Position numbers and translations under genes: made by a program
Notes under the pieces: generated by a model
What the model saw: only the letters and a program-made list of their open reading frames with translations
Told to the model about the DNA's origin: nothing
Databases searched by the model: none
From: Nitrospira sp. SB0677_bin_15
Lineage (GTDB): Bacteria; Nitrospirota; Nitrospiria; Nitrospirales; UBA8639
Length of the DNA stretch: 39,718 bases
Reading direction: 5' to 3'
Assembly: GCA_009842645.1 (NCBI GenBank)
Contig: VYFB01000036.1
Location: 1-39,718, forward strand
Shown here: piece after piece, positions 28,498 through 33,682 of the stretch
How positions within the stretch are numbered: position 1 is the first letter of the stretch
Layout of the letters: each line of letters starts with the position of its first letter

Positions 28498-28647
28498 TAC
28501 ACCCTCTTTGAGAACCTTGCGGCGGGCGCGACCATTTGCGACTTCATCGAGTGGTTCGGCGGGGTTGATGAATCGGAGGTGGAGGCGGTGCCGGAGCACG
28601 TCGCTCAGGAACTCCGGTCCCAGGTCACCCATGCACATTCTGTTTGA
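28497..28647 (+). pseudogene. DUF433-like fragment
   Basis: YTLFENLAAGATICDFIEWFGGVDESEVEAVPEHVAQEL resembles DUF433 (LxxGxTxxEfLeWFpgvt). Confidence 0.5.
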
Positions 28648-28740
28648 TAACGGGACGCCCAGGCAGCTGACGCCTCCGGCTCTTCGGCCATGTCGTCGAA
28701 GAGGCCAGGGAGCGCGGCTGGGACGCCTTGTGGTCGGGAA
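28631..28740 (+). pseudogene. DUF5615-like PIN-domain toxin, N-terminal fragment (frameshifted)
   Basis: MHILFDNGTPRQL then, in a second frame, RLFGHVVEEARERGWDALWSG; overlaps the DUF433 fragment as a partner pair would. Confidence 0.55.
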
Positions 28741-29682
28741 CGAGAAGGCAAAGGAGCAGTTCGAGCAGAACTGCTTCACCGTCACGCGACAATTACGCTA
28801 CAGCCGGGACGAGATCCAGTATGCACTGGACATCGTGCTGTTCATCAACGGGCTGCTGGTCTGTACCTTCGAACTCAAAAACAACCTGACCAAGCAGACG
28901 GTGGACGACGCGGTCTGGCAGTACAAGAAGGATCGCAATCCGCGTGAGAAGCTCTTCAAGTTCAGCCGCTACGTGGCACACTTCGCTGTGGATGAGAACG
29001 AAGTGCGTTTTTGCACCCATCTACAAGGGAAGGCTTCGTGGTTCCTACCCTTCAACCGGGGCTGGGACGACGGCGCAGGAAAACCGCCCAACCCCTATGG
29101 ACTCAAGGCCGACTACCTGTGGCGCGAGGTATGCCATTCGGGAGTATCTTCGGGAACGCAAGAGCTCCTTCCAAGCCATCGTGGCCTTCTCAGGTGAGCA
29201 TGAGTTCGGCGGAACAAAGGTCAGCGAGGCCTCCCTGAACGGCTTTCCCTCCACATAAGATCGCCGAGCGGATTCGCGAAGATCCTTACCGCTTTCTCGT
29301 CTGTGCGGACAAATTTCAGACCGGCTACGACGAGCCCCTGCTGCACACGATGTACGTGGATAAGACCCTCTCGGGCATCATCAGGGCCTTCAACGATCTC
29401 TTCGGCTACATTGTCTGGCAGGACGCCGACCGTGTGCGTGAACTCATCACCGAGACCATTCCAGCCAAGGTGGCGGAGGACACCGCCTTCAAGAACGCCC
29501 GGCAAAACCCGGACAAGGAGAACGCGCGCATCGAACATGACAAAGCTTTGGTGCGCGTCATGACGTCCGTGATGAAGGACGACACCGAACTGTTCAAGCA
29601 ATTCATGGACCACCAGAGCTTCAAGCGGTGGATGAGCGACGCCGTATTCGGTCTGGCCTACACACAGGCTGGTAGGGAGTAA
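28741..29682 (+). pseudogene. hsdR: Type I restriction HsdR remnant with internal deletions and a frameshift
   Basis: FEQNCFTVTRQLRYSRDEIQYALDIVLFINGLLVCTFELKNNLTKQTVDDAVWQYKKDRNPREKLF...FLPFNRG (N-terminal nuclease region) then AIREYLRERKSSFQAIVAFSGEHEFGGTKVSEASLNGFPS / KIAERIREDPYRFLVCADKFQTGYDEPLLHTMYVDKTLSGI / FNDLFGYIVW...; central helicase part missing. Confidence 0.85.
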
Positions 29683-29701
29683 TGCCTGTGAGGGCAAAAG
29701 A

Positions 29702-29741
29702 TTGACATGGTCTGGATATGGCCATATAGTATTGTATGGCC
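29702..29741 (+). promoter_or_regulatory. vapB promoter with overlapping operator palindrome
   Basis: TTGACA (29702-29707), 17 nt, TATAGT (29725-29730); ATATGGCCATAT palindrome at 29716-29727 and TATGGCC at 29735-29741. Confidence 0.7.
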
Positions 29742-30020
29742 GTAACTACTATCAAATCGACCTATTCGCTGGATGTGGAATCCATACGCACACTTGAAAA
29801 ATTGGCGCAACGCTGGAACGTGTCGAAGTCCGAAGTGTTGCGGCGCGCCATTCGGGTTGCAGCGATAGACGGGATTCCCAGCGACGTTGCGGCGCTCAGT
29901 GCTCTCGACCAACTACAAGTCTCGCTACGGTTGCGCAAAGTCAATTTCGCACAGTGGGAAAGGGACTTGAAAGTTGAGCGTCGAGCGACTTCTCAGCGGC
30001 TGGCTCATAAGACCCCATGA
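29736..30020 (+). CDS. Ribbon-helix-helix antitoxin (VapB-like)
   Basis: TTIKSTYSLDVESIRTLEKLAQRWNVSKSEVLRRAIRVAA; 4-bp overlap with the PIN toxin. Confidence 0.82.
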   Translation: MAVTTIKSTYSLDVESIRTLEKLAQRWNVSKSEVLRRAIRVAAIDGIPSDVAALSALDQLQVSLRLRKVNFAQWERDLKVERRATSQRLAHKTP

Positions 30021-30388
30021 TTCACCTGGACACGAGTTTTTTGATTCGGGCGCTGAACGTGGGGACCCTTGAGGACTGCAAGTTGCGAGAGTGGATCAGT
30101 GCCGGCGAAACGCTGAGCATGAGCACGGTCGCTTGGGCGGAGTTTCTCTGCGGTCCACTTGACCAATCCGAAATAGAGTTGGCGGCTCAAATCGTTGGAC
30201 AGCAGAGTGTTTTCACGCCGGATCATGCGGCAATTGCCGCACGGTTATTCAATGAGTCGGGGCGACGGCGTGGCTCATTGCTCGACTGCATGATTGCAGC
30301 GGCAGCGCTGGCTGAAGGCGCACCCATTGCAACCATGAACGTGGCGGATTTTCGCCGTTTTGAGGATTCCGGCCTGACGGTGGTCTAA
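30017..30388 (+). CDS. PIN-domain toxin (VapC-like)
   Basis: MIHLDTSFLIRAL; WAEFLCGP; GSLLDCMIAAAALAEGAPIATMNVADFRRF. Confidence 0.9.
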   Translation: MIHLDTSFLIRALNVGTLEDCKLREWISAGETLSMSTVAWAEFLCGPLDQSEIELAAQIVGQQSVFTPDHAAIAARLFNESGRRRGSLLDCMIAAAALAEGAPIATMNVADFRRFEDSGLTVV

Positions 30389-30393
30389 CTTAT

Positions 30394-30915
30394 GGAACCT
30401 CTGATTAAGTGTCTCAAATAAGGTATACTCCGGCCAGGTATCCCCCAACCCACCCCGAATCGGAGGCCTCCCATGCACCAATCCAGTGGCTGGCGGAGCA
30501 ATATTTATGCGAGCGAGCGGTCTTGGTGCGGACGGGGGCGATCGTGGATGCAACGATTATTGCGGCGTCGGGCTCGACGAAGAATCAGGCCCACACCCGG
30601 GATCCCGAGATGGCGTCCACGAAGAAGGGGCGGAATTGGTATTTCGGCTTGAAGGCGCACATTGGCAGTGACTCGCAGGGGTGGGTGCATCGCAAAGCGA
30701 CACGCGGGCGGCGCCTGACGTGTGCCGATCGGGCGTTTAATCGCAAGAGTAACCGCGTGTGCGCCCGGGTCGAGCATGTCTTTTGTGTCATCAAGCACTT
30801 GTGGGGCTATCGGCGGGTGCGGTATCGGGGGTTAGCGAAGAATGCGGCGAACCTGTTCACGTTATTTGCCCTGGCGAATTGGTATCTGGTGCGCCGCGAA
30901 TTGGCCGTCACGTAG
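30394..30915 (+). mobile_element. IS5-family element remnant: left end plus internally deleted transposase; right end not found
   Basis: ggaacctctgattaagtg at 30394; VRTGAIVDATIIAASGSTKNQAHTRDPEMASTKKGRNWYFGLKAHIGSDS...KSNRVCARVEHVFCVIKHLWGYRRVRYRGLAKNAANLFTLFALANWYLVRREL. Confidence 0.85.
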
Positions 30916-31048: not shown

Positions 31049-32041
31049 ATGCCTGCACTGCCTCCTGAAATAATCGTTCAAGCAATAGAAGAGGCCTTCA
31101 CTGATTCTGCAGCGTCGGCTGTCTTGGTGTCGAAGCCGAGAGGAAATCCGAAAAGATTCTACGTTACGTCCGGAGAAGCATCGTTTTCTGTTTGGATATA
31201 CATCTGGACGTTGACTCATGGGGGTGGACCACGTTCGGTTGACGAATATCGTATACAACTTACGTCGGTAACTCCCCCTTTGCCGGAAAATCCAGACGGC
31301 CCTACGCTATTGTTGGGTTACGAGCCAAATAGCAAGTGCTTTGCCGGATTTGATCTTAGAAAACACCGAATGTTTTCAACCCAGTCTCCTTCCATCCAGA
31401 TAAATATCAATACCCTTGGGGAAGCTGTTAGGGATGGTTTTGCCTTTGCGCGGAAAGGTAACGATGAAATTGCAGTCGGTTTTCGTCCTGACAATATGCT
31501 CGCATACTGTGCAAATTATGAAAGCCTGCATGAGAAAGGGGCAGATGTCACAGTGTCCAGTCTGTTATCCAGAATCGGAAGGCTCGAATCCGTAACTGAT
31601 GCTGAAATCGACAAGTTGGCCCCCGACAGGAGGCGTATTGTAAAGAAATTATCGCACCTTGTCCGAGACAGTAATTTTAGAAGAAAGGTCACCGTCGCCT
31701 ACGACCGAAAGTGTTGTGTAACCGGATTGCAACTACGACTCATTGATGCTGCACACATTTTGCCTGTTGGCGCGGAAGGTAGTACCGATGACGTTCAAAA
31801 CGGATTGTGTCTTTCTCCCACTTATCACAGGGCGTATGATCGTAAACTGATCTACCTCACTGAGGAGCGACGAATGCTGATCAATCCTCGCGAGAAAGAT
31901 AAACTCATCAAACTTGGTTTGGGCGGAGGACTTCAGGAATTTGAGTCACATCTTGGTAAAGAGATATTCCTTCCACCGGACAGGAATCAATGGCCACGAA
32001 TAGAGTTCATCCGGTCTGCGAACGAGTTTCGGGAAATCTGA
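31049..32041 (+). CDS. HNH endonuclease (HNH_2-type, likely restriction enzyme)
   Basis: 330 aa; VTVAYDRKCCVTGLQLRLIDAAHILPVGAEGSTDDVQNGLCLSPTYHRAYDRKLIYL. Confidence 0.85.
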   Translation: MPALPPEIIVQAIEEAFTDSAASAVLVSKPRGNPKRFYVTSGEASFSVWIYIWTLTHGGGPRSVDEYRIQLTSVTPPLPENPDGPTLLLGYEPNSKCFAGFDLRKHRMFSTQSPSIQININTLGEAVRDGFAFARKGNDEIAVGFRPDNMLAYCANYESLHEKGADVTVSSLLSRIGRLESVTDAEIDKLAPDRRRIVKKLSHLVRDSNFRRKVTVAYDRKCCVTGLQLRLIDAAHILPVGAEGSTDDVQNGLCLSPTYHRAYDRKLIYLTEERRMLINPREKDKLIKLGLGGGLQEFESHLGKEIFLPPDRNQWPRIEFIRSANEFREI

Positions 32042-32084: not shown

Positions 32085-32130
32085 TTGTATTACAAAAAAT
32101 AATTGACAGAACTGATTTTCGTATTACAAT
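32085..32130 (+). promoter_or_regulatory. Methyltransferase promoter with two operator-like palindromes
   Basis: TTGACA (32103-32108), 16 nt, TACAAT (32125-32130); TTGTATTACAA (32085-32095) and TCGTATTACAA (32119-32129). Confidence 0.65.
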
Positions 32131-32135
32131 TAATT

Positions 32136-33356
32136 ATGCCCCGCCCAAAAGTTAAAAGCCCTCGAAAAAGGCTCGTCAATTTCCGGCTTACAGACACTGA
32201 GTATTCGGAGATGCAATGCTCTGCAGAGGTAGCTGGCTATGATTCGCTGAGCAGTTATCTTCGCCACCTGTATGACAACCATAGACATGTATCTCAAGCG
32301 AAAGAAGATTCCGCAATATACGGTGTTGCACAACCCGAGATTTATAGAGAAACGCAATATGGCGAAATCTATTATGGCGATTCTCTCGGTCTATTACACG
32401 CGACATTGGCACCAAATTCTGTGGACTTGATTATGACTTCGCCGCCGTTTGGTCTTGTCAGAAAGAAGATCTACGGTAACGAAGACGCTGATCGATACGT
32501 GCAGTGGTTTCGACCGTTTGCCGAAGGCATGCAACGGGTGTTGAAGGATAAAGGCAGTCTCGTGATTGATATCGGTGGGGCTTGGAAACCCAGGGCTCCT
32601 ACTCGTTCACTTTATCATTTCGAGTTACTTATCGCGCTGTGTCGGGATTACGGGTTTCATCTTTGTCAGGAACATTACTGGTGGAACCCTGCAAAGCTAC
32701 CGACTCCGGCAGAATGGGTAAACGTCAGGCGAATACGAGTAAAGGACGCTGTAAACTGTGTCTGGTGGCTGTCGAAAACGTCGTGGCCCAAGGCATCTAA
32801 CAAACGTATTCTCGCCCCCTATAGTAATTCAATGAAATCTTTATTAAAGAACGGTTATAAGCCCAAGTTACGTCCATCGGGTCATGACATTTCCAATAAA
32901 TTCGAGAAAGACAACGGTGGTTCCGTTCCACCAAACCTTTTGGCCATCGCAAATACAGAATCGAACGGGACTTATCAGGACTATTGCCGCGCAAATAATC
33001 TGCCGGTGCATCCTGCAAGATTTCCGGCACGCCTTCCCGAATATTTCATTCGAATGCTTACTGATGAAGGGGATCTGGTGGTTGATCCTTTTGGGGGTTC
33101 ATGCGTCACTGGTGAGGTGGCCGAGTCGCTAAGACGCAAATGGGTTTGCTGTGAATTAAACGAAGACTACCTGAAAGGTGCTCTATCCCGATTCGTCGGT
33201 TTGAAACCTCGATTGTCGAAAACGGATAATACTCCTTATCAGGTTTATCCACCGTGTTCATTGAATGGTTCTACAGACACTTCGCCGTTTCCAGAAGACG
33301 GGGGCTTTAAGCGTGCCCTCAAAAAGCCAACACAGAAAAGTCTTCGGCTGTTTTAG
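32136..33356 (+). CDS. Site-specific DNA methyltransferase (N6-A/N4-C, beta order) with N-terminal RHH-like segment
   Basis: N-terminus MPRPKVKSPRKRLVNFRLTDTEYSEMQCSAEVAGYDSLSSYLRHLYDN; LIMTSPPFGL catalytic motif; DLVVDPFGGSCVTGEVAESLRRKWVCCELNEDY SAM motif. Confidence 0.9.
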   Translation: MPRPKVKSPRKRLVNFRLTDTEYSEMQCSAEVAGYDSLSSYLRHLYDNHRHVSQAKEDSAIYGVAQPEIYRETQYGEIYYGDSLGLLHATLAPNSVDLIMTSPPFGLVRKKIYGNEDADRYVQWFRPFAEGMQRVLKDKGSLVIDIGGAWKPRAPTRSLYHFELLIALCRDYGFHLCQEHYWWNPAKLPTPAEWVNVRRIRVKDAVNCVWWLSKTSWPKASNKRILAPYSNSMKSLLKNGYKPKLRPSGHDISNKFEKDNGGSVPPNLLAIANTESNGTYQDYCRANNLPVHPARFPARLPEYFIRMLTDEGDLVVDPFGGSCVTGEVAESLRRKWVCCELNEDYLKGALSRFVGLKPRLSKTDNTPYQVYPPCSLNGSTDTSPFPEDGGFKRALKKPTQKSLRLF

Positions 33357-33553
33357 CTTCTCTTCACGACTTAATTTTGATTAAGCACTTGCTGGAAAAC
33401 TTCAGAGGATTCTGAAAGATGGCCCTTCGGAGTCATGAGAGGCGGGCGGGCGAGAGGAGTAAACAGGAATCCCCCATGCAGGCCCTTCGACTGCGCTCCG
33501 CTACGCTCAGGACAGGCTTGCCGCCTGCACCCCAAGGGATGAAAATCGTACAG

Positions 33554-33682
33554 GTGGTCATCCTGAGCGAAGCGAAGGATCTCGTAGTTGAGGCGGTCGG
33601 TTATCGAGCGAGAGATTCCTCACTTCGCTCGGAATGACAAATGGGGGTATCGGAATGACAAATTGGGGTGTTGTTGGCTATT
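33554..33682. repeat. Dispersed intergenic repeat, family B copy 2
   Basis: gtcatcctgagcgaagcgaaggatctcgtagttgaggcggtcggttatcgagcgagagattcctc...ggaatgacaaattggggtgttgttggcta. Confidence 0.75.

Follow-up and report, generated by a model that had tools for sequence, protein, structure and literature searches.

Conserved operators at the promoters of a ribbon-helix-helix–methyltransferase fusion from Nitrospira and of related fusions: a putative autoregulatory circuit

The window (the whole 39,718-nucleotide stretch of Nitrospira sp. SB0677_bin_15 that was analyzed) contains a gene encoding a fusion protein, here called RHH-MTase, in which a flexible linker joins an N-terminal ribbon-helix-helix (RHH) domain of the NikA-like type to an M.PvuII-type N4-cytosine DNA methyltransferase (MTase). 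Palindromic operators were found at the promoter of this gene and of dozens of RHH-MTase relatives in several phyla, and their presence depended on the RHH domain. The domain very probably binds these palindromes, a conclusion reached without binding data. It is judged highly likely that RHH-MTase represses its own promoter through the operators with no separate control protein; binding, repression, dimerization, and the transcription start site are inferred. Such an RHH autoregulatory circuit had been proposed in an earlier note on this DNA, and the interpretation was supported here, with binding and the sign of regulation still inferred. The features of the locus are listed below; the window's clade comprises the window and L003 to L011 (10 loci).

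31049..32041, + strand: gene for an HNH nuclease carrying MTaX1 (methylase-associated X1) at its N terminus (Pfam; MTaX1, E 3e-27; HNH_2, E 3e-13)
32085..32095, no strand: operator O1, TTGTATTACAA, a perfect 5-1-5 palindrome upstream of the -35 box (matrix score, 21.5)
32103..32108, + strand: -35 box TTGACA (TTGAC in 10/10 clade loci)
32119..32129, no strand: operator O2, TCGTATTACAA, with one mismatch, overlapping the -10 box (matrix score, 21.2)
32125..32130, + strand: -10 box TACAAT, 16 bp after the -35 box and 5 nt before the ATG
32136..33356, + strand: RHH-MTase fusion gene (arm, RHH, linker, M.PvuII-type methyltransferase)
Residues 1-10 of RHH-MTase: basic arm RPK..PR
Residues about 11-52 of RHH-MTase: RHH
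Residues 51-60 of RHH-MTase: linker, low confidence in AlphaFold
Residues about 68-353 of RHH-MTase: M.PvuII-type methyltransferase part

The RHH-MTase gene starts at the ATG at 32136-32138 and encodes 406 amino acids; an in-frame TTG at 32103 has no Shine-Dalgarno (SD) sequence and lies on the -35 box. The earlier reading of the product as a beta-order N4/N6 methyltransferase held as to the methyltransferase and was refined to the M.PvuII type, with 1boo matched at an E value of 1e-102 (residues 73-355). Pfam N6_N4_Mtase covers residues 96-348, the TSPPF motif and the GGS of motif I were essentially invariant among homologues, and the Proteus vulgaris pPvu1 enzyme was 54% identical to RHH-MTase over 282 amino acids. 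M.PvuII methylates CAGCTG, which was depleted about tenfold in the whole genome (48 occurrences versus 444 for the reversed control). Strong depletion was also seen in 13 of 14 genomes of the genus, most of them without RHH-MTase (the exception was G008), and the depletion was dropped as proof of the target because most congeners without the gene show it similarly.

The N terminus, previously suggested to be RHH-like, was tested by profile and structure prediction, and both agreed. The Pfam NikA-like profile matched residues 10-58 with 25 bits in the whole protein, against a cutoff of 27, and exceeded that cutoff with 29.1 bits when the N terminus was scanned alone; 35 of 39 homologues matched it at E ≤ 0.01. 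AlphaFold models of the full-length protein and of the N terminus alone both gave an extended segment (residues 12-19) followed by two helices (20-32 and 38-52), with a pLDDT of about 90 for residues 21-40 in the full-length model. The extended segment received no DSSP strand assignment, as expected with the dimer partner missing from the model. Foldseek matches to the N-terminal monomer model were nearly all RHH or RHH-like, none of them significant (best E, 0.94). R17 was invariant in 39 sequences, and the RPK..PR arm lies ahead of the strand. By analogy with Arc, positions 15 and 17 are expected to point toward the DNA; the placement of R17 rests on analogy only.

The palindromes, their 34-bp spacing, and the positions of TTGACA and TACAAT had all been described correctly, and the window alone gave them no statistical support: 40 perfect 5-1-5 palindromes were present across it versus 39 expected, a chance level at which the significance of the palindromes was rejected, so that the case for them needed comparison with relatives. 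Eighty homologous loci were fetched and 77, including the window, were analyzed, comprising 49 with an intact RHH (RHH+), 21 without one (RHH-minus), and 7 with a degenerate or uncertain RHH. In an unbiased dyad count, GTA-N-TAC ranked first, occurring in 22 of 43 dereplicated RHH+ upstream regions and in 0 of 20 RHH-minus ones; in 50 shuffles of the upstream regions, no dyad exceeded 8. A palindromic matrix yielded the operator consensus GTTnTTGTATTACAAnAAC, and the proposed site is a 19-bp palindrome. Operators scoring above the 95% null within 200 bp upstream were found at 47/49 RHH+ loci, 0/21 RHH-minus loci, and 0/7 degenerate or uncertain loci. A second genomic copy of TTGTATTACAA, on contig C87, had no matrix site above 8 bits and was taken as chance.

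Because the full matrix had been trained on the loci it scored, the comparison was repeated with a matrix built from the window's two sites only, which recovered 42/47 RHH+ loci at the 5% null and 36/47 at the 1% null, with 0/21 RHH-minus loci. A matrix from the window's clade applied to the other RHH+ loci recovered 37/39 at 5% and 22 at 0.1%. RHH+ loci outside the training set (ten viral contigs and one Ensifer plasmid) had the operator in 11/11 cases, and 0 of 200 shuffles scored as high; the upstream region of one of these loci (L099) copies a training sequence, and some of the remaining ones nearly duplicate one another. The operator was absent from four further nontraining loci (0/4), namely, the RHH-minus L105, L092, the real PvuII plasmid, and the archaeal plasmid L093. 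The MTase promoters (9.8 kb) contained 65 sites of at least 12 bits, versus 3 in 502 kb elsewhere. The co-occurrence that the earlier note asked for thus holds: the palindrome recurs upstream of RHH+ homologues. Upstream of RHH-minus ones it is absent. A search of phage genomes matched 200 records; coverage stayed below 80% of the query in every one, and no match among the 25 listed extended into the RHH domain.

Since RHH+ and RHH-minus enzymes form largely separate clades, few events may underlie much of the contrast between them, and for the same reason separate losses within the RHH+ clade carry weight. Inside that clade, the operator is missing from L050, L070/L072, and L073/L077, where either the arm or the basic strand is gone, and from L033, which no longer has the RPK arm. 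These joint losses look like several separate events. Among the other exceptions, L021 retains half-sites only, spaced one base further apart, the start of L049 is uncertain, and L048, an RHH-minus locus inside the RHH+ clade with no recognizable RHH, has an operator-like palindrome without the center base.

The co-losses bear on the possibility that a separately encoded regulator binds the palindromes and that the RHH domain helps the enzyme to find its target or to dimerize. Degenerate RHH scaffolds are kept in L070, L072, L073, and L077 even though the operator is gone, which suggests a second role for the domain. Operator presence nevertheless tracks an intact basic arm and strand, neighboring genes vary from locus to locus, and no HTH_3 (C-protein-type) gene was matched on the window's contig. 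The idea of a conserved gene for a small regulator close to RHH+ loci was also rejected, as the conserved small open reading frames that were found overlap MTase or nuclease coding frames. A separate regulator is therefore considered improbable.

Two promoter layouts were found with the same operator. In the window's clade, O1 and O2 flank a promoter consisting of TTGAC, a 16- to 17-bp spacer, and TACNN[TG], followed by 5 to 7 nt to the start codon (10/10 loci); the operators are 34 to 35 bp apart, with centers 46 to 49 and 12 to 14 bp upstream of the ATG (10/10). All 10 clade loci start with ATG and lack an SD sequence of at least 4 nt, and SD sequences were present in 31/39 other RHH+ loci. 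Under a strict parse (TTGTNN-17/18-TANNNT), the operator overlapped the -35 box in 16/39 of the other RHH+ loci. Two promoter designs under one operator are as expected for repression. On this spacing, and in the absence of RNA data, the clade mRNA is very probably leaderless, with a predicted transcription start at the ATG or within about 2 nt of it. The near-leaderless mRNA claimed before thus gained comparative support only, from spacing and the lack of SD sequences at all 10 clade loci, its start site remaining inferred. Leaderless transcripts are known in restriction-modification (R-M) systems, such as the C-dependent PvuII transcript (PMC2997769).

In the proposed autorepression, RHH dimers would bind the 19-bp palindromes at their own promoter as the enzyme accumulates. 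With O2 over the -10 box and O1 a short way upstream of the -35 box, bound protein would exclude RNA polymerase and so cap the methyltransferase level. O1 also occupies a possible activator position, and C-protein switches typically have two sites (PMC12707154), so that the RHH domain might activate, or both activate and repress, as C proteins do; this is considered unlikely given that O2 covers the -10 box and that many other loci have their main operator over the -35 box. Least credible of all is that RHH-MTase methylates the motif itself, with control through promoter methylation as in CfrBI, because M.PvuII relatives without an RHH domain that are 57 to 64% identical to the window protein do not have the motif and GTATTAC is unlike CAGCTG. 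Promoter methylation does control other R-M systems (PMC12707154).

As an extension of autorepression, it is conceivable, though doubtful, that the fusion senses how much of itself is present and how much substrate remains, through titration of the RHH domain. Unmethylated sites would hold the MTase domain and keep the RHH domain off the operators, so that synthesis continues; once methylation is complete, free enzyme would shut the gene off. If this were true, one portable sensor would serve unrelated nucleases.

The HNH gene at 31049..32041 is presumed to be the restriction partner of RHH-MTase. No operator-like site of at least 7 bits was found near its start, and direct control of the nuclease gene is not predicted in the window's clade. 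The HNH gene lies upstream in the same orientation in the window and 8/9 clade relatives, downstream of the MTase gene in L017, L021, L022, L026, and L033, and divergent from it in L028 and L030. Most other loci encode an AAA_5 ATPase, read as McrB-like, together with an unassigned partner in a usually convergent arrangement, and L046 and L078 have other partner gene sets. Near nuclease starts, no operators were found except a shared divergent one (L030) and a weak one of 8.2 bits (L045). Outside the clade, the nuclease gene shares the operator when divergent or lies downstream of the MTase gene in the same orientation. In the Nitrospira locus L003 (97% identical), the HNH gene is absent and both operators are kept, leaving an orphan RHH-MTase; there, the end of an upstream TPR gene and the start of the operator region fall within about 50 bp (L003:1794-1890). 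Because partner nucleases vary, the conserved unit is RHH-MTase and its operator. Of the claim that MTase level is controlled beside an HNH nuclease without a C protein, the lack of a C-protein-type gene stood for the window's contig, and the HNH nuclease is not essential to the proposed circuit.

Regulatory methyltransferases have been described with N-terminal helix-turn-helix (HTH) domains (PMC12707154, PMC3874152); none of the RHH type was found in the open-access literature searched, with subscription papers and REBASE outside the search. M.SsoII, M.Ecl18kI, and M.EcoRII resemble RHH-MTase in the fusion of a DNA-binding domain to a methyltransferase and in an operator that overlaps the MTase promoter, with autorepression expected. 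They differ in carrying an HTH on a C5 enzyme rather than an RHH on an N4-cytosine enzyme of M.PvuII type, in the operator itself, and in not having the predicted leaderless arrangement of the window's clade. The PvuII system (pvuIIM, C, R) contains the closest characterized methyltransferase, but it has a separate C gene, an M protein without an RHH domain, a different nuclease, and no such operator upstream of M; on pPvu1, a separate HTH regulator gene adjoins the PvuII nuclease gene. NikA/MobC-like RHH proteins and RHH antitoxins share the strand-helix-helix profile, the conserved strand arginine, and palindromic sites, whereas the window's RHH domain is fused to a DNA methyltransferase and is inferred to act on its own gene. 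Omega and PaaR of toxin-antitoxin systems are RHH repressors that bind their own promoters (PMC3874152); unlike the window's domain, they stand alone and are not fused to the antidote enzyme.

It is a standing question how restriction systems that have no control protein balance methyltransferase against nuclease. The loci described here represent a cross-phylum family of putatively autoregulatory methyltransferases, using a fold unreported for that job in the literature searched, with a defined operator shared by both promoter layouts. The proposed circuit is small and directly testable, and its sequence signature can be used to annotate other genomes.

Several further observations were made around these loci. 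Upstream of the HNH gene, remnants at 28508-30915 of the window suggest a decaying defense island; they comprise an incomplete N-terminal piece of HsdR, a gene with a PIN domain, and an incomplete transposase of the IS5 type. A repeat-like stretch of the ACTTCGCTCGGAATGACA type follows the RHH-MTase gene (33480-33670). On the archaeal plasmid L093 (2879-3073), a small annotated protein that is RHH-like by eye is encoded immediately ahead of a methyltransferase of the PvuII type, in a different frame, and the two may be a split version of the fusion. RHH-type MTases in L046, L078, and L050 lie beside pairs resembling, by eye, DndE and an ABC ATPase, and a neighboring protein in L046 contains RNA polymerase alpha-CTD and sigma-region-4 domains (Pfam).
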